This document shows, one piece after another, positions 3,962-49,219 of a stretch of 64,000 nucleotides of DNA. The notes beneath the pieces were generated by a model. The model did not search any database and was not told where the DNA came from. It saw only the letters and a program-made list of their open reading frames with translations. Each line of letters starts with the position of its first letter. Within the stretch, counting starts at the first letter, position 1. This DNA is from Owenia fusiformis (lineage: Eukaryota; Annelida; Polychaeta; Sabellida; Oweniidae): contig CAIIXF020000009.1 in assembly GCA_903813345.2 (NCBI GenBank), forward strand, positions 24,650,740 through 24,714,739, given 5' to 3'. Position numbers and translations under genes: made by a program.

Positions 3962-6691
3962 AATAAACGTGTAGGTTATCATCCCTATTCATTCTAAGAA
4001 GACAGTTCAGTGTAATTGTAACTTCATTTTATTTTATCAGAATGCATTTCTGTCATAAAAAAAGAAAAATAGAAGAGGCAATGCATATCACACATTACTA
4101 CCTCTTTTTGTCGACATGACCTACAGGTAAATGAAAGACTACGTAATATGAATGAGTAGGTAGAAACGTCAAGGATTAACGAATTAATGTCAGTTTGTCA
4201 CAATTGGAACAGTTAATCCTCGGAGACCCATTGCCTCAAACGAACCAGAAACATAAAAAACTGTTTTATATGTCTCTGAACGAACAAATTATGTTTTCAA
4301 TCATAACGGGATGTGCTTTAAAAGATCCGTTAGTTTGAATATTGCACTAGAGTAATAACCGTACATCAATGCATGTAGCTAGCTACATATTATGATTTTT
4401 TACTCAACTAATTTGAATAAAGGTACACATTGTAGAGTTATATAAAACATAAATTTCTCTCATTCTGGTGGACAACTGTGAATTTTCAAGTGCACATATC
4501 TTTAAGGTAGTTCTGTATGTTCAAACGTTTTGGTGGCTTTCTAATGGGAGTCTCATTCTTCAGATTTCTTTAGACCATTAAAATCGAGGGTTAATAAATA
4601 TTTCAGATGTTTAAAGAAAGAGAAAATGCAATGACCTACTTAAAGTAATTATTCCTTTTAAAAAGTAGGTCACTGAATTTTCTTAATTCAAGACACTATA
4701 GAAAATCATCGACCCTAAACTAACCATTCAAGAACATTAATGTACCATTTGGGCAACACTGAAGATGTAAACCATGCAGGAAATGAATTATGTGTACCAG
4801 AAGCTAGAATGGGACTACAACAAAGATCATTATAGTTTTGTATTTCTAAATCCCATTCTTATTCAATTAGAGGAAACAGAACGGAATGACGTTACGCGAG
4901 GCTTTAACCTTTTCATATTCGGATGTGATCTAAGCTTATTTTTAGCCAACTGTGCAACATTTCTTGCACTAAGCTTGGTAGGCGTTTTTTGTTTGGGGGG
5001 GGGGGATTTCTCACATATATAATTGTCAATTAACCCAAACCTTCAAAATCTATATTTTTGCGCTTTCTATTCAAAATATTAGAGAAAAGTTCCAAATACA
5101 TATATTCCATTTATATTTTCTCTATTAAAGCTATAACAAAGTAAATGCTTAGTCCATGGAAATCTAAGTTTTGCTATAGCAATGCTGATTTTCCATTTGT
5201 TTTGACATTTGACGCTCAAGGTTCTTACCTATTTCAGAAGCTATTTGACCTAGTTTCTGATATATCCTCCAAAAAACTCTCAAAAGATACCATTCATTGT
5301 GATATTTGATTGATGGTGTTTGTAGAGGTTTGAATCGTGCCCGTCCGTTGTATGAAAAGGGATCGCCGACATTCGAGTTAACTATTTGCGCGTGTAAATG
5401 TACTGTCAGAGTACATTGTAACTAAAATTACGGAATGCTTAGTTTGAAGGTTTCATGTTTACGTTAGACTCCCCAAGAAAGATAAAAAAGTTTTTGTTTT
5501 TAAAATAGAGCGGTACGATTCCAAAATAATCAGTTTGAATCTTGAAGAAAAATCAACATTGCAAAGCTATTGATCGGGTTTTCGTGAGAGATATCCCAAA
5601 TATTTACTTAATTAGTTATCAGTTACGTCATTTAATTACTCAGATGCGAGTAGGTAGTTACCAGTTTCGCCACCAGGTGGCTGATTCGGGGAAATACAGT
5701 AACATGACAGAGTATTACAAAATTCCCCTATACTTGAATATTCATCAGTTTTACTGGTTCACTTTTCATATTATCCTTATGTATCTGATAGTTATACAAA
5801 TTAATATATTTACAGTAAAAAAAAAAAATTATCTGCCCAACGCAAGAAAATATATTTCCATTTTTGTGATTTTACAACATGGGGTCTATGGGGAATCTCC
5901 CCGAACTAGAAGTCACGTACATTTTCAAAGAAAATTCAATTTTCAAAGTTGATAAACTCTTTTCAAAACCACATTTCTAGATGTACTTTTACATGTAGAT
6001 TCCAAATATGACATCAGTTTGACTGGATTTTGAATTTTAAATGACGTAAATCGAGATTATTTCTACTCGCATCTAGGATATTGTCCATGACATCATCTTA
6101 GACATCCTGGTAGGCCAACATATTCCTAAACCTTGATTGATTAAGATGGTCTCACAACGAATACCGAAAACAGGATCCTTTGAATGCCCTGTACATTCAT
6201 ATTTTAAATACTATATAAATACATGTAGTGTTCAATAACAAGTAAAACGAGTATTATTAATAATATTGTAATTGGCCGTTTAGAGTGACTGACGCACAAT
6301 AACATCTCGTTTCTACTGAATTATTTATTTCCATATGGGCTTCTTAATCATCGTAATGTCCAACTGACTATGTCTCCCCATTTATTTCATATACTCACTA
6401 TTCAGTGCCAAAATAACTCTCTATGAGATTCACGTCAAGAAGGTCACTTCCCTCCCATATTGTACTTTAATTTGATGTGTTATTAGATGATGTTTGGCTC
6501 ATTGTTAAAGAGGATATGTTATAAAATGAATCAATCATCATTAGAGATCCATTATCTATTGAGTTTATCAATTCCAGCTTTGATCAGGTTCACCTACATA
6601 CAACAGCATAATGAATGAATCAAGCGATTGACAAGCAAAAGAGCGAAACATTTGAGTTTCGATAATGAGCACAATTACTTTGAAAAACAAA
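3962..6691. other. Non-coding AT-rich stretch
   Basis: No gene is recognised. It contains an imperfect 12-bp inverted repeat at 4630-4641/4663-4674 and an 11-G run at 4995-5005. A dispersed repeat of about 55 bp at 6022-6075 recurs inverted at 13530-13585, sharing gatgcgagtagaaataatc and tttacgtcatt. The 82-aa and 136-aa ORFs at 4774 and 5542 lack domain or codon character. Confidence 0.5.
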
Positions 6692-7776: not shown

Positions 7777-9496
7777 ATGATATCCAGAGAATGGAAAGGC
7801 CTCAGCCGCATACCTTCAAAATGGAAAGAAGGAATTGTTTGTCCTATCCATAAAAAAGATGACAAATCTCTGATAAAAAATTATCGGCCTGTAACTTTAC
7901 TTTGTACAATGTCTAAACTTTTTGAAAAAATAGTAAATTGTAAACTGATGACCCACTTGACATCAAATAACCTCCAACTAACTGCTATAACAAACTAAAT
8001 TCTTCAAAATTTTGAAAATGGTCTCGATGTTCGAGCAATATTTTTGGACATTCAATCAGCCTTCGACAAAGTCCCTCATGTACTCCTTCTTCAGAAAATT
8101 AAATCCTACGGTATCCCAGAATCACTAATTGACCTTTTTCAATCTTACCTTACAAACAGAACAATTAAAATCAAGATCAATGATGAATTGTCTAGGTCAA
8201 GTAAAGTCGGTCAAATCAACTCTGGAGTCCCCCAAGGCTCAATATGGGGACCGATTTTCTTTTTGTTATATCTAAATGACATAACAGACGACTTTAACTC
8301 TAAATGTTTTATCTATGCGGATGACACGTCACTTTTTTGTCCGGTTGACCCAATAAATCACCAAACAGATAGCCAAGTTCTTCAAGAAGACTTAATTCAT
8401 ATCCAAATGTGGTCCCAGAGATGGGGACTATCTTTCGCACCACAAAAAAGTCACGAATTGATCTTTAAAACAAATAGACCAATTGAGAGAACATATCCTA
8501 ACTTTGTTTTCAACGACACACCAATAGATCAAATTAAACACCATAAGCACCTCGGTCTAATTCTTGATGAAAAGTTAACTTTCAAAACCCATATTGAATA
8601 TCTAGAAGGCAAAGTTCAAAAATTATTAAATCCACAGATGGCACTTAAGCACAGATTAAATTCCAAACACCTGGAGAAAATTTACTCTTCCTTTATCCTG
8701 TCTCATCTGGACTATTGTGATATCATTTATGACGCTGCTCCAGCTACCAGCCTAGCCCAGTTAGACATTAGCTACATTATAGGGCAGCTGTTATTTGTTC
8801 TGGTGTTATGCAAGGAGCAAGCACAGAAAAAAACCTTGAAATATTAAATTGGGATAATCTTCAAAATAGACGGGATGAACATAAATTGCGCCTTTCAAGA
8901 TTCATAACAATTCGGTACCATCTTACGTAAAACGGATTTTTGAACGATATAAATCACCTCAGACGCGAGTTCTTAGAACAACCAACGACTACAAATTACC
9001 CGCCTCGATAAGTAAAAAAATGGAAACGGGAACAGTTTGCTCAATGATAACCTTGTGGAGCCGTCTTCCTAGAGACCATAAGGAAACGAACAGCTTATCA
9101 CTCTTCAAAAAACAACTAAACGATCATCTCACCAAAAACACCGAACCTACAATTTCAACCTCCTACATACAGATTCTTGATAGAAAAGAAGAAATTGTAC
9201 TAAATAAGATAAGAGTAAATCGATATTTCAAATCCGATCTTTTTGACCATAATTTCTCTTTCGTTAACGATCAATATTGTGACTGTGGAGCTCGAGAGAC
9301 AGCACAACATAAACTCTTGTCCTGCCCTCTGAGAGAAACAAATGCGCTAGCGGTGGTTAAACATGAATTAAACTTAGATGTAACTAAATACAAAACATTA
9401 AAAAATAAGACAAATTTCCTACTTTTTGGCGACAAAGATCTGACAAATGAAAACAATTCTAAAATATTTAAGGCAGTTTTGAATTTCATTAAATAA
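7777..9496 (+). pseudogene. LINE reverse transcriptase/C-terminal domain pseudogene
   Basis: The pieces align in order to the LINE protein at 30.4-32.9 kb. They are: WKEGIVCPIHKKDD and NYRPVTLL (fingers); FLDIQSAFD (motif A) at 8044; SGVPQGS (motif B); FIYADDTSLF (motif C) near 8315; KHLGLILDEKL; and a C-terminal C-x-C-x7-H-x4-C zinc-knuckle-like motif near 9279-9327. It is dead. There is an in-frame stop at 7996 beside a deletion of roughly 15 codons before motif A. One frameshift lies near 8770 and another near 8910, after which the frame of 9020-9496 continues. It once encoded the polymerase that copies the element's RNA at the target site. Confidence 0.88.
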
Positions 9497-10304: not shown

Positions 10305-11993
10305 AACAAGGCATTAACATGACAAAATGTCACCACCTAAAACAATTTGGTCAATTTAAAGCAAGTTGGAAAATACCTTTTGACCTTAAGAAGGTTTGAT
10401 TTGAACTTCTTAAAACATTCGTCAATTTGAAGCAAGTTGAAAAAATACCTCTTTGACTTTTTTTGACATTGAGAAGGTCATTGAAGGTCAAATGTCAAAT
10501 GTAAAGTCAGATTTGAACTTCTGAGAACATGTAGATGATTTTGAAAAAAAAAATTAGTCAGTTTGAAGCAAGTTGAAAAAAGACCTTTTTGACCTTGAGA
10601 AGGTCATTGAAGGTCAAATGTCAAATCTAAAGTCAGATTTGAACTTCTGAGAACATGTAGATGATTTTGAAAAAAAAATTAGTCAATTTGAAGCAAGTTG
10701 AAAAAAGACCTTTTTGACCTTGAGAAGGTCATTGAAGGTCAAAGGTCAAATCTTAAGTCAGATTTGAACTTCTGAGAACTTGTAAACGTCAAATTTGAAC
10801 TTCTGAAAAGATGTAGACAATTTTGAAAAAAAAAGTTGGTCAATTTGAAGCAAGTTGAAAACAGACCTTTTTGACCTTTTTTGACCTTGAGAAGGTCATT
10901 GAAGGTCAAATGTCAAATCTAAAGTCAGATTTGAATTTCTGAGAACATGTAGATGATTTTGAAAAAAAAATTAGTCAATTTGAAGCAAGTTGAAAAAAGA
11001 CCTTTTTGACCTTTTTTGACCTTGAGAAGGACATTGAAGGTCAAATGTCAAATCTAAAGTCATATTTGAATTTCTGAGAACATGTAGATGATTTTGAAAA
11101 AAAATTTAGTCAATTAGAAGCAAGTTGAAAAAAGACCTTTTTGACCTTTTTTGACTTTGAGAAGGTCATTGAAGGTCAAATGTCAAATTTTAAGTCAAAT
11201 CTAAAGTCAGATTTGAATTTCTGAGAACACGTAGATGATTTTTAAAAATTTTTTTAGTCAATTTGAAGCAAGTTGAAAACAGACCTTTTTGACCTTTTTT
11301 GACCTTGAGAAGGTCATTGAAGGTCAAATGTCAAATCTAAAGTCAGATTTGAATTTCTGAGAACATGTAGATGATTTTGAAAAAATTTTTTAGTCAATTT
11401 GAAGCAAGTTGAAAAAAGACCGTTTTGACCTTTTTTGACTTTGAGAAGGTCATTGAAGGTCAAATGTCAAATCTTAAGTCAAATCTAAAGTCAGATTTGA
11501 ATTTCTGAGAACACATAGATGATTTTGAAAAAAAAATTTAGTCAATTTGAAGCAAGTTGAAAACAGACCTTTTTGACCTTTTTTGACCTTGAGAAGGTCA
11601 TTGAAGGTCAAATGTCAAATCTAAAGTCAGATTTGAAGGTCAAATGTCAAATCTAAAGTCAAATCTTAAGTCAGATTTGAATTTCTGAGAACATGTAGAT
11701 GATTTTGAAAAAAAATTTAGTCAATGTGAAGCAAGTTGAAAAAAGACCTTTTTGACCTTGAGAAGGTCTTGAAGGTCAAATGTCAAATCTAAAGTCAGAT
11801 TTGAACTTCTGAGAACATGTAGATGATTTAGAAAAAAATTGAAGTCAGTCTAAACAGTATTTGTTAAGTTATAGGAAGTTGTAAGAAATTGTTACAGACG
11901 CCGGACGCCAACCACCAACCGCCGGACGCCGGACGCCAACCGCCGTTACAAAAAAACGGAGACCATAACAATTTTGGTGGTGACATAATAATG
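10305..11993 (+). mobile_element. Tandem-core TIR element, copy 2 (full length, 1.7 kb)
   Basis: The best-preserved family member. The left end AACAAGGCATTAACATGACA is followed by ATGTCACCACC (10327-10337). The perfect inverse GGTGGTGACAT is at 11976-11986. Between them are about ten units of roughly 115-160 bp built from 'tcaatttgaagcaagttg', 'gaccttgagaaggtcattg', 'aagtcagatttgaa' and 'gagaacatgtagatgattttg'. A GC-rich right subterminal block (cgccggacgcc repeats, 11896-11945) precedes the right end. Some units carry an extra 'gaccttttttgacctt', making a higher-order pattern. There is no ORF. Confidence 0.82.
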
Positions 11994-12828: not shown

Positions 12829-14424
12829 ATAATACTTGAATTTATACCATTAGTCTATGTTATTTAAAACTGACCTACTTTGCGTCCAAATTTGAGTCGG
12901 CACTATCCATAACTGTCATTTCCCGTTCTTACGGACTGTCCTAATTCAATAACAATTATATCTTCAAGTTTGCAACTTCAACATTATAGTGTTTGCGGAC
13001 GTGGTCAAGGCAGGTAAAACGGTCACGATAAAGTGTCGATAAAACTGATAAGGTACACTTATCGTACATTGTTTAAACATATGTAATATTACACTTCTCT
13101 TTAGTGTAGTTCACACTAATTGGATTCCAGTTCAAGTGGTTCTGAAATGAAACCGAAACGGCGAGTGAAAATTTAATGTAAATAGTTGCCTTTGCGTATT
13201 TATTCCCGCATGGCATAGACTTCAGAACTTTCGTTAAATCATAAAAATTATTTACAAATAACAAAGAGAAAAAACTTACTAACTAACTACATTGCCAACC
13301 TGAAGAACATGTTTAAGAATATTTACAAATAATTACAAGTCACACTTTGAAATGCAATCACATTGCATAAACAATCATTATGTCAACAGTATGTTTATCA
13401 CCATTTGTTTAAACGTGAAATTATTTGCGCAATTTAATTATCAAAAACGCTGCACCATGTTTTGAGGCGATAAGTTGACTTAAGTTTGACTAATTGATTT
13501 ATACACACAATTTGTTTCATTCTCAATATACTTGATGCGAGTAGAAATAATCTTGATTTACGTCATTGAATATTCAGAATTCAAGGAGTGAACCGAGAAA
13601 TCTCAAAACTGTTATCCAGACCTTTTTACAGAGCAGTCATATAAGGGAAAGGCTGTGTAACTATTTTTACCAATCCTAAACAGTTTCGGAAAATGCATGA
13701 TAAAATCCTTGATTGAGCCTGTCAAACCCCATGGTTTAAATCTTTTCCATTATTTGCTATGAAAAATATACATATACAAGTACCAAAGGGAAAAGACTAC
13801 TCAAAACGTGTAACAAAGCAGAGCAAGGGAATAGATACAATGCGAAGGACTAATAACTCAACAAAGGATGATAAATCGATAGCACTTTATAGCACAAATG
13901 AAAAAGAACTACAAAGTCATTTCATTAACGAAATTTGATAGAGTTGAGGCCCCGAAGTCCAAACAATTGAAGCTTTTTTATCTTATTTGGGAATCGTTAT
14001 CGCTTAAGAATAACTTAGCCGCCCTTGTAATTCCCAGATGCGAAGATTAAATCTGGTTACGGAAAATGTAGCACGGGACGGTCGTCCAATCAAAAATGAA
14101 ATAAGAAATTTAACATTAATTGAGTTTACATTTTAAGACAGTCCGATTCCGCCGAACATTAAAGTACAAGGGTACTTTAACGAATAGGTTGCAGTCATAT
14201 ATAGTACACTATATATTATTAATTGATAACTACGTATAATGGTGCAATGACCTGACGTGGTATGCACTTACGCATCGATTGGTAACTATCATGTGCAAGT
14301 GAAGATGCTAAACCGACAACTAGATGCAACATGTGCACCAGAAATATTTCATACACATTTGCATTAGGTTAAAAAGTTGATTCTAAGCCGAAGGAAGAAT
14401 CTGAAACTCCCCCATCCCTGGTCA
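12829..14424. other. Non-coding stretch
   Basis: No gene recognised. It contains the dispersed repeat of about 55 bp at 13530-13585, which is the reverse complement of 6022-6075. Confidence 0.4.
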
Positions 14425-14716
14425 AAGGGTATTTCACTTCTCTATAGTTCTGTCCTTTTGGGACTGAATAGATGTAAAGTATTTATGGTACACTAATTCT
14501 GTTAGCTCTCCCCATACGTGTTAGTCGCAGACGTTGGGTGATTGGGTGACCTGGGGAGGCAGTGATCATTAAGGGGGGGGGGGGGGGGTTGAATCTAGGC
14601 ACATTTTCTTTTAAACGTTTGACACTCTTGTGGAATCTATTGCTTAGAGCCCCATCTTGTTGGAAAATGTAATGATTCCAAAATGAGCTCATATCAGAAT
14701 GGTCCAAAAACAACAT
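14425..14716 (-). pseudogene. Mariner-type transposase fragment (minus strand)
   Basis: The minus-strand frame from 14716 reads WNHYIFQQDGA, the conserved motif around the second catalytic Asp of IS630-Tc1-mariner transposases. The open frame then runs into a G16 homopolymer (C-run on this strand) at about 14573-14588. In another frame a relic of the post-catalytic region follows (YGELTELVYHK, TSIQSQKDR). Its distal 110 bp (14425-14540) is an inverted, diverged copy of 14725-14840. Non-functional. Confidence 0.7.
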
Positions 14717-14724
14717 AATCGGAT

Positions 14725-15160
14725 CATCCGATCAACGTCTGCGACAACGACATATTGGGAGAACTAACAGAAATGGTGTATCATGGACCCCTTACATCTA
14801 TTCAGTCCCTTACTAAGGATAGAATTGCTGAGAAGTAAAATTCATTGTCTCAACAGCATATCAATGATGCTATTGACCAGTTTAGGCCAGACTTGTGGGC
14901 TACAATTGAGAAAAATGGTGGACATATTATTTATATTTATGTAAATAAAGTTTAAATTAAAACCCGTTTTTAAACGAAAATGACGTCATTTATATAATGG
15001 ACGCTGGTTGACAGATATTTTAATAAATTTGAACTTATGATATACCAAATTAAAGATGATTAAATTCCCTATCCATTGGTATATAATATGACATGTTTTC
15101 ATCAAGAAAATCAATATTTATTTTTGAAATACGAGTGTCCCATTTTTTGAACCACCCTGT
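14725..15160 (+). pseudogene. Mariner-type transposase C-terminus and element 3' end
   Basis: The plus-strand frame reads GELTEMVYHGPLTSIQSL, then KDRIAEK, a stop, and NSLSQQHINDAIDQFRP. It ends in IEKNGGHIIYIY and a stop near 14955, the typical C-terminus of these transposases. The 3' non-coding region ends in the inverted-repeat terminus tgtcccattttttgaaccaccctgt at 15136-15160. The internal stop at about 14835 and loss of the upstream domain make it a relic. The fragment at 14425-14716 is the opposite-strand half of the same rearranged locus. Confidence 0.75.
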
Positions 15161-15397
15161 ATATCACATACCGTCAACCATTGATTTCTATTTAATTTAA
15201 TTTACAAAGAGAAGAGAAAAGTCGAAACGTTATAATATATTAAAGTACAATTGTATGGTTGTGATATTCATTTCACTTGATAGAAAGGAGTCTGGTCCGT
15301 TGACTTAGAAAGACTATTCACAGGTGGAGTTTCATCCTTTATTCAAAGGACTTCATTAATTATTACTCAATTTAGAAAAGGAAAAAAGTGAAATTCA

Positions 15398-15637
15398 TTG
15401 TCTCAACAGCATATCAATGATGCTATTGACCAGTTTAGGCCAAAATTGTCTCAACAGCATATCGATGATGCTATTGACCAGTTTAGGCCAAAATTGTCTC
15501 AACAGCATATCAATGATGCTATTGACCAGTTTAGGCCAAAATTGTCTCAACAGCATATCAATGATGCTATTGACCAGTTTAGGCCAAATTTGTCTCAACA
15601 GCATATCAATGATGCTATTGACCAGTTTAGGCCAAAA
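15398..15637 (+). repeat. 48-bp minisatellite derived from transposase codons, 5 units
   Basis: Five head-to-tail 48-bp units, each encoding the 16 residues LSQQHINDAIDQFRPK in one continuous frame. The same 16 codons occur once at 14845-14892 inside the transposase C-terminus. Units differ by only a few bases (for example catatcgatg in unit 2). The array is preceded by the same 'aaattcattg' as in the parent copy. It is followed at once by the element's 3' UTR (gaacttatgatatacc), so the true C-terminal codons are deleted. The open frame has no ATG and I do not consider it a gene. Confidence 0.92.
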
Positions 15638-15768
15638 TTGAACTTATGATATACCAAATTAAAGATGATTAAATTCCCTATCCATTGGTATATAATATCA
15701 CATGTTTTAATCATGAAAATAGTATTTATATTTGAAATACGAGTGTCCCATTTTTTGGACCACCCTGT
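15638..15768 (+). mobile_element. Second copy of the mariner 3' end
   Basis: Nearly identical to 15033-15160, from ttgaacttatgatatacca through the terminus tgtcccattttttggaccaccctgt. Together with the array at 15398 it forms a second, internally deleted 3' end of the same transposon, 610 bp downstream of the first. Nothing is recognised in 15769-16160. Confidence 0.85.
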
Positions 15769-16171
15769 ATATATACAATGTATATCTTGATGAGTAAACA
15801 TTTCAATAATTATTTTCAACCAACAAAACATGTTTAGAAACCTTCCTGCAATCTAGGAACATACAGGTATGTGTACTGTTTTGGTTCGTAGCCTTTTAGA
15901 TAATCAGCCTAAGTTTCAATTATGCTGAAGGTATTCCCTCCTTTATAATTAAAATCGTTTCCTAATTTGAATCAAATGTTATTTTCGGGTAAATACAAGT
16001 ATAACCAATTCCACACATAATTTACATCTTTTAATTTAGCACGAAGAGTATATGTTTACTATATCTAGTAATTTCATTTAGGTTATGTAGGGTTAATCAG
16101 CTGTAACAAAATTATCGCATTCTTCCATTAAAATTTCAGTATGTGAAGTTACCTCAAGGCGGGCCTCAAGG

Positions 16172-30109: not shown

Positions 30110-32945
30110 TTTTTTTATTAATCATTTTTATTTCAAGTTCATACATTATAACATTTAATTTCATACAATGAAAATTCAACAAGGTTAATCAATTTAACAT
30201 TTGTGTTGAACTTCGAAGTAAATATACCATACACTTATATGCAATACAAATTTGTTACAATTATTCGTAACTATTCATATATAAACAAAAAGGAAAAAGT
30301 ACAATTAAAGCTGATATTGGTATGCTTTACAAAAAAAGGTGTGCAATGGTGTAAATTATGGGATGGTGTAATATACATGTTAGTCAATCTTGGTTGCTTT
30401 TAGGAATTTTAAAGTTGCTTTCAGCAGAAATGTATTATCTTCATTACTAAGTTCACTGTTACCATGCAAGAGCATATTTACTTTGCTAACAGAGTTAGCA
30501 TCTAAGAATTTTTCTAAACAACCAATAATATGGAGATCTAAAAGTAGTTGGATTCTATCATTTACAAATTGGGGGCATTTGAGGAAAAAATGAGTAGGGG
30601 TTTCATTTTCATGACCACAGTTACAGGCTGGTGAGTCAATGTTTGTAAAGTGATTAGCAAATAATTGACTTTTTAGAAATAGGTCCACTTTTAACCTGTT
30701 AAATATAATTTCAGTTTTTCTAGTGATATCAAGTGATGCTATTATATTTATACATTTTTCATTCCCGAAATCCTTTCTAAGTTTGCCTTTAAAAGTTGAT
30801 ATTCTATTGCAATTTCTTAAATCATTAGGCAGACCATTCCATTCTTCAATCGCAGCAAAATATGTAGTTTTTCTAAATGAAATGCTGATATTTAGAGGCA
30901 CAACATACTCTCTGACAGCCCTTAGAATTCTATTTGGTTCATGTAAGTATTTATTAAATAATTCAGTGACATATGAAGCTGATAAATTGATTCTACTTTT
31001 AAATAGAAATGAGCAAAGATGGCTTCTTCTTCTCTCAGACAAAGTAATCCAATTTAATGTCTTCAAGACCTTATAGGCGCTTGAACCATGCAGAGCACCG
31101 GAAATTAGACAAGCTGCATTATAATGCAGTCTTTCAAGTTTGCTGGTAGCTATATTTGGAGCACTATTGTAAATTATATCAGCATAATCAATTTTACTTA
31201 GAATAAAAGAATTATATATGGTTTCCAAATGATTCGAACGAAGAATGTGAGTTAATTGTTTAAATGGATTTAAGATTGTCTGTAATTCCTTGGTGAGCTC
31301 ATTAACATGTTCCTTGAAATTAAGCTTTTGATCTAAAATAACACCAAGGTGTTTGTGACTAATAGTTTTAGGAATGGGGTCACCTCCCAAATAGAGTATA
31401 GGTTCATTAACAGGGTTTGTTAAAGGTGATGTAAAAGTCAGGTCAGCACTTTTTGATGCCTTAAATTTCATTTGCCAGGTATCAGCCCAGGTTTTAATTG
31501 TATTTAGGTCAATTTGCAGATTTTGAGAGAGTAAAGGGCTTGTCTTAGAGTAAGGAAGGAAGATTGATGTATCATCTGCATAAATGAAAGTCTTACAATT
31601 TAGATTATCAGGTAGATCATTTATATACATTAAAAACATAAGTGGCCCTTATACACTGCCTTGTGGCACACCAGCATTGATAAAATCAGGTTCTGACCAT
31701 TTCGAGAAAGAATTATTTACTTTAACCTTCACTTGTCTTTGTGACAGATATGAATTCATTAAAAGTAAGAGATTATTGTTGATGCCATAAGATCTCATCT
31801 TTTGTAATAGTAATTGATGCGGAACGACGTCAAAAGCTGATGCTAAATCAAGAAAGATAGTTCTTACATTGTTTCCATTATTCAATTCTTCTTCAATGCA
31901 ATGCATTATATATGAAAGTTGGGAAGTGGTATTATGCTTAGGAAGAAATCCTGACTGAAAACTGTGAAAGAGGTTATTTTGGATCATGTGATTGAAAATT
32001 CTATCATAAATAATCTTTTCCAGAACTTTAGATAAAGCATTTAACAATGTGACTGGTCTATAATTGACAACTTTAGATCTATCTCCTTTCTTGTGTAGTG
32101 GAACAATAATACCCTCTTTCCAAATCTTCGGGAAACAATGAGATGTAAAAATTTTGTTAAAAAGCAAACTCAATGGTTCACATATCGTCTCAGCTGATAA
32201 AATTAGCATTCTATTATTTATTTTATCTGTCCCCTCCCCCTTTGATGCATCAAGTTGTTGAAGTAGTTTTAAAACCTCATTCTTATCAGTAAAAATATCT
32301 TCCAAGTTTAGATTACACCTTAATGGAAAATTTGGTAATGGTTCGTGTATTTGATCTACGTTGTTCTTCTGAATAAAATATTTAAGAAAAAGTTCAGCTT
32401 TCTCAGAAGAAGATCCCGCAGATAGTTTAGGATTATCTAAATGTAAATAAGGCAGTGACACATTAAATGACTTTCCAAGTAGCTTCTTCAAAAGTATCCA
32501 GTAATCTGTTGAGTTTCTATTTAAATCTGATAAAGTTCCACATGTTGATTCTATATGTTTACGCTTAGCTTCATTTATCATATTCACAACACATAAGCTT
32601 TGTTCTTTGTATTTTTGAAGAAAGGTTAAATCATTTGACCGTTTAAATTTATGGTGAAGTCTATCTCGTTTATTAATTTGCTTCTTTATATCAGAATTAA
32701 ACCAAGGCTGATCATTTTCTTTTATTAAAACCTCTTTATGCGGAATTGTTTCCTTAAAAATGTTGAACAAGTATCAACAAACCTATGAGTGGAAATATGA
32801 ACATTTTGAAGTTCTAAGATCTCTCCCCAGTTTGAATTAAGTATTCTTTGATTCAATATTGTTTTATAAAGTTTACCATATTGCCAAATGATTTTCTTGG
32901 TTGGAGTTTCTTTAATAATGTTCGTTTTTAGGTATGTTAACAAAG
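30110..32945 (-). mobile_element. Jockey-superfamily LINE insertion, 5'-truncated (2.8 kb)
   Basis: A minus-strand non-LTR retrotransposon. Its 3' UTR of about 270 bp ends in aataaaaatgattaataaaaaaa at 30110. The 5' end at 32945 lies within the linker before RT; the endonuclease is missing. The 6-bp flanks TTATAG (30104-30109 and 32946-32951) form a target-site duplication. The pre-insertion sequence survives at 57660-57720: aatttaaaccactttt runs directly into tagtcttaccc and aaaatgtgatatg. These match 30080-30109 and 32946-32985 respectively. This paralogous empty site fixes both ends of the insertion. Confidence 0.9.
30380..32945 (-). pseudogene. LINE reverse transcriptase polyprotein, one stop and one frameshift
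   Basis: Reads on the minus strand. The linker region (NWGEILELQNV) ends with a one-base frameshift near 32765. A 373-codon frame follows (start 32770) with WKEGIIVPLHKKGD (217-230), NYRPVTLL, FQSGFLP, motif A FLDLASAFD (306-314) and motif B GVPQGSV (367-373). A single in-frame TAA lies at 31649-31651. The same frame then continues for 419 codons with FIYADD (motif C, residues 18-23 after the stop), KHLGVILDQKL and a C-terminal C339-x-C341-x8-H350-x4-C355 knuckle. Stop at 30380. Only two lesions in about 2.5 kb make this a young copy compared with the one at 7777. No endonuclease domain is present. Confidence 0.92.
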
Positions 32946-35398: not shown

Positions 35399-35589
35399 GT
35401 TAATGATAAATTAGTGATACCCTGTTGCTGTTAGGGCTTAAATCCTTAATTATTAAAAACATTAGTGTTCATAATTCATTTCCAGAAATTAATCTACATC
35501 TATTATTTATCCTTACATCTATTAACCTGATTTATGTCCTGCCGCTGACAGAAAATATACCTTAAATATATATCTTTTAATTTGTAATA

Positions 35590-36557
35590 CAGGGTGATAA
35601 AAAAACTGGAACCCATGAATCATCAAATTTCTCGGAAAGTATTTTACCTAGATTCTTCATTTTAGGGTAGAAACTAGACTGAATGTGTGACAAAATGACA
35701 TAATGAGTACTGTAGCTTACACATTAATCATGCCATGGACGACAGAAGATAAGACTCATGTTGTGAGAAAGTATATCGAGACAAAATCCTATAAAAAGAC
35801 ACAAACTGCCTATAGGATAGATTACGGGACAATGAGAGATCACAGGACAAGAAGAGACCCTTGCAAGTCACAGATCTTTAGGCTTGTACAGAAGTTTGAT
35901 TCTGAAGGAACTGTAAAACAAACAAAGAAGAATAGTGATGGTAAACCAACCTATTCGAGGAGACAGAGGTCTGTCAGAACTCAAGAAAATATTGACAGAG
36001 TCAACAGTCAACACAGAACGTTACATCTCTACCGTTCGAAAGTTTTGGAGAGCGCTGGGTAGACGTATTGATTTGAGGAAGGGACAAACAATGGTTCCAA
36101 CAAGATGGTGCCACACACCACATCGCAAATGAGTCCATTCGATGGCTTCAGGCTCACTTTGGTGATCGATTAATCAGTCGCCGTACATGCCACATCTGGG
36201 CCCCCACTCCCCTGATTTTTATCTGTGGGGGTATCTCAAGGATAATGTGTATACAGATAGACCTTTGACCATTGATGACCTCAAACTCAACATTGGAAGA
36301 CTAATTAGAGAGATAGACAGAGATGAATGCAGTTGGGTCATTGACAATTTTGGAAGAAGAATCCAGCTCTGCATTCAAAGTCGTGGACATTTGGAGCTCA
36401 TTATCTAAACGTGCCTCATTTGGAGACTAATTGAGCTAGAATGCTCAATCTGTGGCATCTTGACATTCAGTTGACTATACATGTGCCAAAGAACTAAGCT
36501 CAATATGCATAATTGACGAAGTCATTCTTAAGTGGTTCCAGTTTTTTTGTCACCCTG
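35590..36557 (+). mobile_element. Tc1/mariner-superfamily transposon, 968 bp
   Basis: TIRs of about 24 bp (CAGGGTGATAAAAAAACTGG, then aacc; inverse at 36534-36557, with one T/C difference) are flanked by TA on both sides (35588-35589 and 36558-36559). This is the TA target duplication typical of the superfamily. The interior encodes a broken transposase. The TIR resembles the lone terminus at 24672. Confidence 0.88.
35703..36408 (+). pseudogene. Broken mariner-type transposase
   Basis: The N-terminal part (119 codons from ATG 35703) reads EDKTHVVRKYIETKSYKKTQ and RLVQKFDSEGTVKQTKK, a helix-turn-helix DNA-binding region. The first catalytic Asp segment is absent, so there is an internal deletion around 36060-36090. 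QQDGATHH at about 36093 carries the second Asp. After a frameshift near 36190, HSPDFYLWGYLKD gives the third, roughly 36 residues on. The C-terminus IQSRGHLELII ends at 36408. It once bound its TIRs and cut and pasted the element; it cannot now. Confidence 0.85.
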
Positions 36558-37505
36558 TATATCGATTTGGAGTTTTGAGATATATTGACAGTGATAAAAA
36601 AGCATCTGAGTTGTAATGGATGATGCAAACCATCTGTATTAGCTAACCGTTCCATTACTGCTATGGACGTTTACATGATGAGTACGAAACAGTTAAAACA
36701 CTATTTGTAGTTTTGTTAACAGTATACACAGGTGTTGCGTAAGGTGTTAATTGATGTAGATGTAAACAATCCTATGGTGTTCTGCAGGGCATGACCATCG
36801 TGGAAGCATTGAGGAATTGGCATATCAAGCCGTGGTAGAACAACATAATGTACAGTACAACCTGCTGATGAAAATGCTCAATACGCAGACTTTGTACATA
36901 ATGTTACCAACGGCGGATCCAGGGGTATGCTCCCCTTTTTGTGGGCCCATCGAAAATTTAGGGCCCCAAAAATGTTTGGGCCCAAAAATTGTGTAGTCAC
37001 GACTGGAAAGAACAAACAAAAATGAAATACTTTCATATTTTTCAATCTAAATTATTTTTTAGGCTGTCCATTAATAGGTAATGCAAAGTCTCAAATTGGA
37101 CAATATACTTGATTTGCCAAAAATCAAAACCGTCCACATTTTTGTTTTGCTGTATGTCCCTTATACGAACAGTTCTACATTGATAATATTTTTTCCGTGT
37201 GGTTCACTAACTAAGGTTTCTTCGCCAGTCACTCAAGGGCAATCAGCGTTTCATTTGACATTATCTCCTAAATCAGTAGGCATTGTATCCATCACTTCGG
37301 AGATAAGAAAATTACTTAGTTCAATTTGTATATGCTAGACCATTGCTGTTGTGTTAACATAAGTCCCGCCGCATGTTTCTTAACAGATAAACCCTTATGT
37401 TTCATAACTCGCGAGTCGGGCACTTTTATTTAATAGTTCCAAGTAAATTACACAAAGGCTTGTTAACATCAATCTTCCACGCAATTTCTACGTACATTAT
37501 GGATA
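36558..37505. repeat. Diverged duplicated segment, copy 2
   Basis: Colinear partner of 24695-25925: gcatctgagttgtaatggatg and tggtgttctgcagggcatg (36600-36800); cgccagtcactcaag, atttgacattatc and gataagaaaatta (37218-37317); tgtttcataactcgcgagtc, caatttctacg (37400-37495). It begins immediately after the right TIR of the mariner, as copy 1 begins after a related terminus. Confidence 0.65.
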
Positions 37506-38021: not shown

Positions 38022-38023
38022 TA

Positions 38024-38997
38024 CAGGGTGACCCAAAAAAATGCAACTCTCCATTTCTTCAATATTTTTCTTGAATGGAGATTAATTGCTCTAAAATTTG
38101 GCACACAAGGACTTCATTCAATGTGGGATCCTCTGGCAAAGTTTCAATCATCATAGTCCTATATTGATACAGTTATGGTCGTTCCAAAATATGCTCCAAA
38201 TGTCGTCCATTTCCAATGTTAGGTTTTCGGATGAATCACATTCCCTTCTTTCTGAACATGTAAACTCAAGAAATAATGTGTTCTGGGATCACAAATTCCA
38301 GATGAAGTGCTTCAAAGGCCCCTTCATTCTGTTAAATGCACAGCTTGGGCTGCCAATTTCCAAACATGAAATCATCAGCCCCTTTTGGTTTGAGGTTGAT
38401 AATGGCAACACTGTTATTGTTAACACACAGCGCAATATTGGCGTTCCCAGGAAGTTCTAGGCAGTTCTAGAATGACATACAGGCTTCAATAGACAAGAAC
38501 AGTGGTTCTAGAAGTATGGAGCTACTCCTCACACTTCTTATGATAGCATAGCCTGGCTCACTAGTCATTTCTATGAGAAGATTATCTCTCCTAGGATGGA
38601 GAACCCATGGTCATCCCAACGTTTGATCTCAATGCCCCTGACTTCTATATATGGGGTTACTTAAAGGATAGTGTGTATGAAAATAACCCTACCGCAATTG
38701 CAGAACTCCAAGAAGCAATGACTGCAAAAATTTGAGCCATAACCATGGGGAAAATGCATCCGTGTTATGAACAGTTTTCCTGGAAATTTTGCAAGTTTGT
38801 TTTCAGCGAAATTGACGATATCTGGAGCATATTTTGAAACAATCATAACTCTATCAATATGAGACTATGATTATTAAAACTTTGCCAGAGGATCCCACAT
38901 TGAATGAAGTCTTTGGGTGCCAAATCTCAGAGCAATTTACCTCCATTTAAGAAAAATATTGAAGAAATGGAGGGTTGCATTTTTTTGGGTCACCCTG
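38024..38997 (+). mobile_element. Mariner-superfamily transposon with about 195-bp TIRs, 974 bp
   Basis: Begins CAGGGTGACCCAAAAAAATG and ends in its inverse, with TA on both sides (38022-38023, 38998-38999). The inverted arms extend much farther than usual: 38024-38218 against 38803-38997, about 90% identical by eye. Shared blocks include cattcaatgtgggatcctc and ccaaaatatgctcca. The transposase remnant lies between the arms. Long TIRs may be ancestral or may result from inverted duplication of one end. Confidence 0.88.
38219..38840 (+). pseudogene. Degenerate mariner-type transposase
   Basis: Only the catalytic part remains. FSDESH (38227-38244) holds the first Asp. The segment around 38290-38420 keeps ISKHEII.PFWFE and DNGNTV. 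At 38511-38530 the block corresponding to QQDGATPHT reads KYGATPHT, so the second catalytic Asp codon has become Tyr and is preceded by a stop. NAPDFYIWGYLKDSVYENN (38630-38690) gives the third Asp. Several frameshifts and stops are present and the N-terminal DNA-binding region is missing. It is related to the 35703 protein (shared PDFY.WGYLKD). Confidence 0.8.
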
Positions 38998-38999
38998 TA

Positions 39000-42140: not shown

Positions 42141-43562
42141 TATTTCTCCTTGAAAACATTATCAAATCCAAGAAGAACCATCTTGTCACTTTTAAACTAA
42201 AAGCCAATTCATATTCTCTGTAAATAATTGTCCATATGTCTTTACTTTCAAATTATAACGCCATCTGACAGATTTGCACGTCTCAGTTGGCTGATTGAAG
42301 AATATATCATTTTGGCAGAATATATTACATTGGGTATCAACGTGTTACCAAGACACTTTTTTCTGAAGCAAAACGATCTGCCTTTTGGAAGCAGATTTTG
42401 GGAAGATATTTTGTTTTCTACATCAAAAACGATTCAATCTACGATTTTCTCCATAATATTGGGTGTGTATGGTAGCGCATCAGCTACTATTTCGAGAAGT
42501 ATAATTAGTTTTTCATCTTACTTCATTGCGACACCGTATGCAATTTGAGTTCCTCGATTTTTGTAGCAAAGACACTATAGGTATAAAAGCGAGGAGAAAA
42601 CTGCAACTAAGCCATATTGTGATGACGTGGGGTGGTAGTTATAATACATTTTGAAATTGGAGAGCATGCGCTTATTAGACACATACAATGGAGAAAATGT
42701 TATAAGTTGTTGAATGATTTGAATGCAATACAGGATACACTCTCTGCTCTGGAGAGGTCAACAATTGTATACTGTATTGCGCTACGGAGGTGGTCAATGG
42801 GGACAATCCCAGTAGCAATGCAGATTGGTACAGTACGAACTTACCAATCAGAGGGCTTCGTTTTATAGATCATACGAAAAAATGAAAAAATAAATATATT
42901 TCACTCCTTTTTTATAACATATCGTCTTTGAGGAATCTACTTGAATATCTAATGAGGAAAATGTTTGCATGGGTCTATTGTTCAAGAAATTGGTTGACCT
43001 GAAAACAAAATATTTTATCAAAATTCGCCACCTGAAGGTTGAAAATCTTGTTCGAAAAACAGTAAGTAGAAAGACATTTCGTCGAACTTTGACTTGTAAT
43101 AAGAGACATATTTCGACCCAAAAGCCAAAAGTTTTTTCAGCAAGCTGTATTTTAAAAGAACCAAGATATATGGACCTTATATATTGGTTCAAATGACACA
43201 GCGCAACATTGTGCAACGAATTCTTCCGGAGTCATATCATGGATTGTGTAGCTAGCCATATACAGTACATGACGAACAAGCTAAGATATTTGCATATGGT
43301 CAAACAGGTACAACATGAAACAATTCTGAATTATTAATAAGCAATCTATACCGATAAAAACACGAACAAAACTACTAAATGTACAGGAATCATAAAACCA
43401 AGAGATACATCGAGCAGCGCAGGTTTTATCCATCTAAAAGATCAGCAGTATAAACAATATGATGTAGTCCATGTCTGAAAGGTCAATCAATTGTTACACT
43501 TCTTGTGGTGTAACACAAGGAGCAACACACACGTTTGATAGGCAATATGTATATATATATAT
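42141..43562. other. Non-coding stretch
   Basis: No gene supported. The 106-aa (42228), 78-aa (42632) and 75-aa (42969) ORFs show no family motif. A short TA microsatellite (43549-43562) abuts the next element. Confidence 0.35.
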
Positions 43563-43563
43563 A

Positions 43564-43925
43564 CAGGGTGGGCCAAAACTTTTTTTCAAGACACTATAAC
43601 TTTTTATTTTCCAACCTGTATACCCCAAATTCTGCAGTTATATAGTGCCAGGGGTTCTGAGTAATAATAAAATGTAACAAGCCCTTCAACTTGAATTATA
43701 TTTGATCTAAAAGAGGAGTTCAATTGGTCCGCCACCCTCTTTGATGATCGCTTTTAGTCTTAGTTGCCTTGCTGATATAGCAGTATCGGTGAAATGTTAG
43801 CTAAGTTTCTTTCAACCTGTCTTAATTGTCAGCTTTAGTTGAGCAAATTTCAAGCTTGGGTGCCTTCATACAATCTCCTGGAGACCTTCCCATACCCTAT
43901 ACTCACTGGGGTTTGCATCGGGACT
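43564..43925 (-). pseudogene. Tc1/mariner transposase 3' fragment
   Basis: The terminus CAGGGTGGGCCAAAACTTTT at 43564, preceded by TA, marks the 3' end. On the minus strand coding runs 43925 to 43700. It reads WANSPDANPSEYRVWEGLQ (the third catalytic acidic region, here with NPSE), a stop, then FAQLKLTI and KLS, and ends RLKAIIKEGGGPIELLF with a stop. Three in-frame stops are visible. The upstream part is lost; a LINE C-terminal fragment abuts at about 43925. This is a different subfamily from 35590 and 38024, which have PDFYLWG. Confidence 0.75.
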
Positions 43926-47111: not shown

Positions 47112-47582
47112 AACCCCTATCACACCAAACTAGTTCTTACTCGTTCTTGCCAGTCCTACGAAAACGTCGTAAAACGGGCTCAATCTGGCTGTGGTCGGGA
47201 AATATGTCTGAAATAATTAGCTTCTTCGTTCTTAAACAGTCTCCAATACGTCCATCTCGTTCGCACTTCGTTCAGGTCGCACCACGTCGGTGTGCAACGT
47301 CGTAGAACGCGTCCCTTAGTCTAGAAGGTCAACATGACCTGATTACAGAACGGTATGGTCGCCATCGAATTTTGAATCGATTCAAAATCGAAAGTTGCAG
47401 CTACGTTCATTCCGTTCGCACACAGTTTAAAACCAGTTTTGAAGAACGCAGTGGCAACTTGTTTGGTGTGATAGCTATATTTTTGCTAACTCGTTAATAA
47501 GCAATGTTAAATACGTTCTTAATCAGTTTAAACCCGTTTTCTTAGAACGTAGTGAGAACTAGTTTGGTGTGATAGTAGGGTT
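47112..47582. mobile_element. TIR element (ATCACACCAAACTAGTTCT family), internally deleted copy
   Basis: Ends aaccccTATCACACCAAACTAG and ctagtttggtgtgataGTAGGGTT. Compared with the 800-bp copies beside it, about 330 bp of the interior are missing, mostly toward the right end. The interior is more GC-rich than the flanks and dense in acgttc/gttcgt-type hexamers. No ORF. Confidence 0.85.
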
Positions 47583-47612: not shown

Positions 47613-49219
47613 ACCCCCCTATCACACCAAACTCGTTCTTTCCCGTTCTTGCCAGTCCTACGAAAACGTCGTAAAACGGGCTCAATCTGGCTGTGGTCGG
47701 GAAATATGTCTGAAATAATTAGCTTCTTCGTTCTTAAACAGTCTTCAATACGTCCTTCTCGTTCGCAGTTCGTTCAGGTCGCACCACGTCGGTGTGCAAC
47801 GTAGTAGAACGCGTCCCTTAGTCTAGAAGGTCAACATGACCTGATTACAGAACGTTATGGTCGCCATCGAACTTTGAATCGATTCAAAATTCTAAAATCA
47901 CATTCCCGTCTGAGAACGATCATAAAGTTCGTAAATAGACCTTAGAAAGTTGCAGCTACGTTCATTCCGTTCGCAAACAGTTTTGAAGAACGCAGTGGCA
48001 ACTTGTTTGGTGTGATAGCTATATTTTGCTAACTCGTTCATAAGCAGTGTTAAATACGTTCTCAATCAGTTTAAACCCGTTTGCAATTAGTTCTACCTCG
48101 TTCTCAACACGTCCTCAGACAATTCAACTCGTTGTTAAAACGTCCCTAGTAGGATTGAAGTACGACGGTTCCGTTCGTAGTACGTCCAGCTCGTCGTTAG
48201 TACGTTGTCACTCGTTCTAATTGTAGAACGTGACGACCACGAGAACATTTTGAGCATTGTCTAAGTTCTAGAGGACCTACCCGTTCGAGTACGTTCGATG
48301 AAGTTTGTAAATAGATCCCAAACGGTTCTTAGTAGGTCCAGTCCGTTCGTACACAGTTGAAGCCCGTTTTTGAGAACGTAGTGAGAACTAGTTTGGTGTG
48401 ATAGTAGGGTAACCTTACTATCACATCAAACTAGTTCTCACTACGTTCTCGAAAACGGGCTTCAACTGTGTACGAACGGACTGGACCTACTAAGAACCGT
48501 TTGGGATCTATTTACAAACTGTATCGAACCTACTCGAACGGGTAGGTCCTCTAGAACTTAGACAATGCTCAAAATGTCCTCGTGGTCGTCACGTTCTACA
48601 ATTAGAACGAGTGACAACGTACTAACGACGAGCTGGACGTACTACGAACGGAACCGTCGTAGTTCAATCCTACTAGGGACGTTTTAACAACGAGTTGAAC
48701 TGTCTGAGGACGTGTTGAGAACGAGGTAGAACTAATTGCAAACGGGTTTAAACTGATTAAGAACGTATTTAACACTGCTTATGAACGAGTTAGCCAGAAT
48801 ATAGCTATAACACTAAACAAGTTGCCACTGCGTTCTTCAAAACTGGTTTTAGACTGTGTGCGAACGGAATGAACGTAGCAACTTTCTAAGGTCTATTTAC
48901 GAACTTTATGAACGTTCTCAGACGGGAATGTGATTTTAGAATTTTGAATCGATTCAAAATTCGATGGCGACCATTCCGTTCTGTAATCAGGTCATGTTGA
49001 CCTTCTAGACTAAGGGACGCGTTCTACGACGTTGCACACCGACGTGGTGCGACCTGAACGAACTGCGAACGAGATGGACGTCTTGAAGACTGTTCAAGAA
49101 CGAAGAAGCTAATTATTTCAGACATATTTCCCGACCACAGCCAGATTGAGCCCGTTTTACGACGTTTTCGTAGGACTGGCAAGAACGGGTAAGAACTAGT
49201 TTGGTGTGATAGAGGGGTT
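47613..49219. mobile_element. 1.6-kb palindrome of two fused copies of the same TIR element
   Basis: The plus-orientation copy 47613-48412 ends ...gtttggtgtgatagtagggt. It runs directly into an inverted copy (48411-49219) beginning aaccttactatcacatcaaac. The two 800-bp halves are inverse copies with very few differences (for example tgtgatag/acactaaa near 48809, and 'gtatcg' for 'acgttcg' near 48520). The outer ends are TATCACACCAAACTCG and tagtttggtgtgatagaggg. There is no spacer at the centre. The whole could form one giant hairpin. Confidence 0.88.

Follow-up and report, generated by a model that had tools for sequence, protein, structure and literature searches.

A five-unit minisatellite in the truncated 3' end of a mariner-like element of Owenia fusiformis

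We describe a minisatellite found in the annelid Owenia fusiformis, in a window of 64,000 nucleotides (assembly GCA_903813345.2, contig CAIIXF020000009.1, positions 24,650,740–24,714,739 of the forward strand). All positions given below are counted from the first nucleotide of this window. The minisatellite has five units of 48 bp (15398–15637, + strand) and lies in the remains of a mariner-like transposable element. A preliminary description, made from the letters alone, had reported these units together with a single copy of the same 16 codons, LSQQHINDAIDQFRPD, at 14845–14892 (+ strand). Both are confirmed and all its coordinates hold. The single block is found within a decayed copy of the element, which we will call copy 1. 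Tandem Repeats Finder gives the array as 15397–15640, with a period of 48, 5.1 copies and 97% matches; the units start at 15398, 15446, 15494, 15542 and 15590. When up to three mismatches are allowed, a 20-mer taken from the unit is found six times in the window, namely in the five units and the single block, as compared with a mean of 0.02 in 100 shuffled sequences: the array is beyond chance.

Units 1, 3 and 5 are identical, while units 2 and 4 have one private base each: in unit 4 it is a T instead of an A at position 48, in unit 2 it is one further change. Four units are identical to 14845–14892 in 46 of 48 bases and the other one in 45. At positions 46 and 48 all five units depart from copy 1, and both differences adjoin the junction with the downstream sequence. 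As it should be in a minisatellite of transposon origin, the tandem units are homologous to a stretch which occurs once within a transposable element. The array is the only one of this unit in the window. We compared 12 tandem arrays of the window with the rest of it. The five outside matches of our array all correspond to the single block (14844–14896). Three of the twelve (at 6688, 17180 and 35271) have no match outside themselves; in the remaining ones most outside matches are nearby or belong to additional copies of the repeat concerned. The transposon context of these arrays was judged from the flanks of seven of them only, and we make no claim on the rarity of the 48-bp array.

Copy 1 (14733–15164, + strand) is the remnant of a mariner-like element, with the 3' part of the transposase, the 3' untranslated region (UTR) and the 3' terminal inverted repeat (15134–15161). 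The 48-bp block occurs once and is followed by the tail codons (LWATIEKNGGHIIYIYVNKV), a stop, the 3' UTR and the terminal repeat, which reads TACAGGGTGGTTCAAAAAATGGGACACT as the reverse complement. The fragment with the array spans 15386–15770, on the same + strand, with a gap of 221 bp from copy 1. Upstream of the array it has a short piece of transposon sequence (15386–15397, + strand), homologous to 14833–14844 with 11 of 12 bases identical; to the left of it the homology stops. Downstream, 15638–15770 (+ strand) contains the 3' UTR and the 3' terminal inverted repeat (15742–15769), and the stretch 15634–15772 matches 15025–15164 in 94.3% of 140 columns. The extra units aside, an alignment of the two copies has 193 columns, of which 10 (5.2%) are different. 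The mean difference between units is 1.7%, so that the array seems to have expanded after the two copies had separated, although the numbers are small.

On the other side of copy 1 there is an opposed transposase remnant with the motif FQQDGA (14431–14731, − strand). Its part 14431–14536 overlaps copy 1 in transposase coordinates. In the region 14431–14841 the arms of the opposed remnants, 14460–14536 and 14733–14809, are 82% complementary. The word AAGTGAAAT is common to the end of the minus-strand remnant and the start of the array fragment (15386). Its presence at both ends suggested a single element split by an inversion, but we rejected this possibility: the divergence from copy 1 is unequal, with 23 of 110 alignment columns different in the opposed remnant and 10 of 193 in the array fragment (p 6.9e-5).

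As the preliminary description had it, the array joins the 3' UTR directly at a TTG and the true C-terminal codons are gone. The TTG at 15638 corresponds to that at 15029 in copy 1, and the counterpart of 14893–15028 (136 bp, + strand), which comprises the C-terminal codons, the stop and the start of the 3' UTR, is missing from the array copy. In copy 1 the word TTGT is found at 14845 and again at 14893: their spacing of 48 bp is the unit length. The end of unit 4, AAATTTG, agrees with the UTR in seven of seven bases and with the C-terminus in five; the end of unit 5, AAAATTG, agrees in six and five of seven respectively. The chance that both unit-wide differences fall within the last four of 48 positions is 0.0053, in a test which was picked after the data had been seen.

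This anatomy, with its junction words, spacing and unit variants, can be read directly in the window. From it we infer the order of the steps and the repair pathway. The array probably arose in the 3' end of a dead mariner-like element truncated on its 5' side, by a deletion at a microhomology and a tandem duplication at TTG. Microhomology-mediated repair would have deleted the 136 bp, either before the duplication or in one and the same repair event. The sequence AGACTTG, at the 3' end of the transposase, would have annealed imperfectly with AAATTTG of the 3' UTR (five of seven bases, exact at TTG), and the UTR bases would have been kept. Slippage or template switching would then have produced a tandem duplication of the 48 bp which extend from the upstream TTG(T) to the junction TTG, and growth to five units may have proceeded by slippage or unequal exchange. 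Abortive gap repair after excision of the transposon would be a natural setting for the deletion; it has been proposed for mariner deletions in a study of such elements (PMC4678618). At the unit ends the bases agree more closely with the 3' UTR than with the C-terminal codons that are gone, which favours a deletion that was first or in the same event. The agreement of the unit length with the TTGT spacing is also in favour of our reading: within 14733–15164 a match of at least 4 nt is found at 2.8% of all breakpoints of 30–79-bp duplications, and one of at least 3 nt, as at the deletion, at 8.0% of all deletions of 100–179 bp. If the annealing is correctly read, the presence of the junction letters in every unit would also place the duplication after the deletion or together with it. 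This order is favoured but not proven, since the value of 0.0053 was computed after the pattern had been seen and copy 1 is a mere proxy for the ancestor. We read the array as a neutral repair scar, with no function implied.

The opposite order has also to be weighed. Slippage between the two TTGT words of an intact C-terminus would have produced the array, and a later deletion, with TTG at the join, would have brought its last unit next to the 3' UTR; the change from GAC to AAA would have been already present in that copy. The exact spacing of the TTGT words in copy 1 and their microhomology of 4 nt agree with this course of events, and a divergence of 5.2% between the copies permits two substitutions in 48 bp. 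However both substitutions must then fall within three bases at the unit end, next to where the junction was formed later (a probability of about 0.005 for the last four) and the deletion must begin exactly at the end of the array, so that we consider a duplication in the intact C-terminus rather unlikely. An error of assembly or sequencing, with a true unit number which is lower or higher, is barely credible. Tandem arrays in assemblies are prone to collapse or expansion, but 240 bp are easily spanned by one read and the private substitutions in units 2 and 4 are unlike simple stutter.

Several points speak against the favoured course of a deletion before or together with the duplication. Copy 1 is no more than a proxy for the ancestor, and a duplication followed by two point mutations (GAC to AAA) would account for the same units. 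With 4 nt at the duplication and 3 nt at the deletion the microhomologies are short, and each of them taken singly is of modest weight, as words of this length are not uncommon. No hairpin clearly stronger than in shuffled sequences was found (z −0.58, −0.78 and −1.36); among 200 shuffles those which fold equally well or better number 52, 49 and 20, and we discarded a hairpin as the driver of slippage. In humans the two standard models of minisatellite birth cover only 6% of the tandem repeats derived from transposable elements, by the count of one study (PMC3389668), so that slippage between direct repeats should not be taken for granted. The origin of the block in a transposase has its own difficulties. 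The Pfam and NCBIfam models have no match for the C-terminal block, nor is there a profile match for the opposed remnant. A search of PDB with a C-terminal piece of 70 residues gave only matches to penicillin-binding proteins, the best with E 0.026. Alignment of the block with the C-termini of two other elements of the window is not above shuffled sequences (p 0.32 and 0.43).

The preliminary description had taken the block as the C-terminus of a transposase. Profile libraries and alignment to other C-termini lend no support to this assignment, which we infer from the position of the block, the stop that follows it, the terminal repeat and the tail motif NGGHI of copy 1, which we take to be characteristic. 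The PDB matches with penicillin-binding protein for this piece, with bacterioferritin for the opposed remnant (E 0.0045) and with E 0.12 for the N-terminus of the element at 35588 were taken as chance; the C-terminal piece of the latter element gave no match in the same database.

We call the array family mariner-like (IS630-Tc1-mariner) on account of the similarity of its terminal repeat to those of two elements of the window, 35588–36559 and 38022–38999, and of FQQDGA on the opposed remnant. The terminal repeat falls within a group, TACAGGGTG, whose members are paired in inverted orientation at two further sites of the window. Over 28 bases it has 21 matches at 35588 and 20 at 38972, where the best values in five simulated windows are 17 to 20; over 20 bases it has 16 and 17 matches (at 35588, and at 38022 and 38980) against 14 to 15 in the simulations. 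The motif FQQDGA is common to the opposed remnant and the element 35588–36559 (p 0.0014, 5000 shuffles). Neither copy has terminal inverted repeats at both ends with a TA target duplication: only the two 3' ends mentioned above were found, and upstream on the + strand there is no partner above chance. We read both copies as truncated remnants, hence the name mariner-like. Four spellings of the terminal repeat, of 16–20 bases, had no match in the literature text, which includes few subscription journals. As to the other elements, 35588–36559 is a decayed mariner-like element with paired TACAGGGTG terminal repeats, FQQDGA and an N-terminal DUF4817 helix-turn-helix (E 9.7e-8), and 38022–38999 has paired terminal repeats of the same group (TACAGGGTGACCCAAAAAAA) and broken frames. 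A further site similar to the terminal repeat, TACAGGGTGGGCCAAA, with 15 of 16 matches, follows a run of TA at 43562–43577; we identified no partner for it.

The units are in frame with one another, as had been noted, but this is uninformative. In both copies the block has a stop ahead of it, in frame and at the same codon, TAA at 14836–14838 in copy 1 and TGA at 15389–15391 in the array copy; the opposed remnant has AAGTGAAAT at the equivalent place. This stop may go back to an ancestor which was itself non-autonomous. Furthermore three of six frames stay open through the array because a 48-bp unit free of stops is repeated, and its in-frame state is therefore no sign of selection. We do not propose any protein product for the array. 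HAMP_N3, YyzF, RepB_primase_C and Chalcone_N exceed the Pfam cut-offs for the array protein, among the matches listed (25 of 30 families). We rejected them as repeat artefacts, since they are mutually unrelated and in three of the four no single stretch passes alone (in RepB_primase_C two do).

It had also been suggested that the array could be spreading with mobile copies. We find no support for this: there is no 5' terminal repeat above chance, a single array is present in the window, and the viral, phage and prokaryotic collections scanned contain no relative, which is weak evidence as they do not cover animals. An ungapped scan of the + strand upstream of the array gave no 5' terminal inverted repeat above chance; the best match is at 14693 (12 of 16 and 14 of 20 bases), inside the simulated range. 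Without a 5' end the array fragment would be unable to move by itself as it stands, and in this window it does not show the two terminal repeats and several loci of a mobile miniature inverted-repeat transposable element (MITE) with tandem repeats. The exact pattern of the 48-bp unit has no match in viral contigs, and that of the terminal repeat has none in viral contigs or prokaryote genomes. A DNA search with 14400–15800 found no match in phages. In protein-guided scans of viral contigs none of 13 candidate stretches was confirmed for the C-terminal piece of copy 1, and none of 5 and 10 for pieces of the element 35588–36559.

The array might still be part of a non-autonomous mariner derivative which is moving, a proto-satellite at many loci like the tandem repeats carried by MITEs; either order of birth would be compatible with it. 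The 3' terminal inverted repeat and the adjoining TA directly downstream would suit such an element, and miDNA4 of Xenopus is a comparable case, as reviewed in PMC12628747. The absence of a 5' repeat on the + strand and the single array in 64 kb count against it, as do the scans, for what they are worth in collections which can hardly contain such an element, and we regard a moving derivative as improbable. Slightly less probable still is that the fusion of codons and UTR is a recurring junction prone to repeats, with many family copies carrying the same 48-bp arrays in differing unit numbers and transposition spreading a proto-satellite seed which began as a repair scar. The preliminary description had spoken of satellite birth inside a transposon end. 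A minisatellite did arise from transposon sequence beside a deletion joined at TTG, but "satellite" is too strong a word for one array of 240 bp.

Tandem repeats derived from transposons, including transposase coding sequence, are already documented, and the array is a well-preserved local case of a known process. The Chenopodium satellite CficCl-61-40 derives from the tnp2 domain of the CACTA-like element Jozin, with a transposase fragment of about 40 bp as the starting monomer (PMC7320549). There too a transposase fragment of deletion derivatives seeds a tandem array beside the transposase; however it belongs to a plant and to the CACTA superfamily, and is the most abundant satellite family of its genomes, whereas here we have one array of five units in a mariner-like element. 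The Tc1/mariner MITE miDNA4 of Xenopus has an internal array with a variable number of units, for which short direct-repeat microhomologies of at least 5 bp are the proposed driver; in Owenia, in contrast, it is the element itself that supplied the sequence of the unit, and a 5' end is lacking (PMC12628747). Two models of minisatellite birth have been set out (PMC3389668). As in the Haber and Louis model and the minisatellites derived from Alu, our unit extends from one short direct repeat to the other, and a transposable element houses the array. That model has repeats of 5–10 bp, and the study counted flanking repeats of 5–20 bp, whereas in our case there are words of 3–4 nt and an adjoining deletion (PMC3389668). 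The word TTGT is found at both unit boundaries in copy 1, but with 4 nt it is shorter than the repeats of at least 5 bp in that source. The mariner elements Rpmar17 and Rpmar49 of Rhodnius have deletions and 3' parts which replace 5' parts, giving long terminal inverted repeats; they are reminiscent of the opposed remnants at 14431–15164, and abortive gap repair was proposed for their rearrangement (PMC4678618). They differ in that these lineages have been amplified, and the word "tandem" is absent from the main text of that paper (PMC4678618). Many tandem repeats derived from transposable elements have been tabulated, miDNA4 among them, with 7276 such minisatellites in humans (PMC9659126), and internal tandem repeats are reported in Merlin elements (PMC8101967). 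In a paper on the satellitomes of oysters (PMC11136912) the word "transposase" is absent. Among the entries listed from the literature, with the same coverage of journals as above, we found no earlier description of the 48-bp array or its terminal repeat. A single copy similar to the ancestor, a deletion junction and a young array are found within 1 kb, so that the birth of a minisatellite can be read base by base. The array illustrates this birth neatly and might be of use as a length marker; no new mechanism is involved.

Neither a tRNA nor an Rfam family that reaches the gathering threshold was detected in a scan of the window. A rhodopsin-type GPCR (G protein-coupled receptor) coding stretch is found on the minus strand at 1855–2907 (Pfam 7tm_1, E 8e-40). 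Reverse transcriptase stretches at 7999–8847 (+) and 30380–32773 (−) are taken as retrotransposon remnants; Pfam RVT_1 is above the cut-off in 7999–8847 and 31649–32773, and below it in 30380–31648. At 10421–11847 there is a complex tandem array rich in TTTTTGACCTTGAGAAGGTCATTGAAGGTCAAA, whose flanks have stretches with matches near 758, 61721 and 62087. Finally, a stretch of 77 nt is inversely repeated at 98.7% (48031–48107 and 48715–48791), with a further partial copy at 47488–47539.
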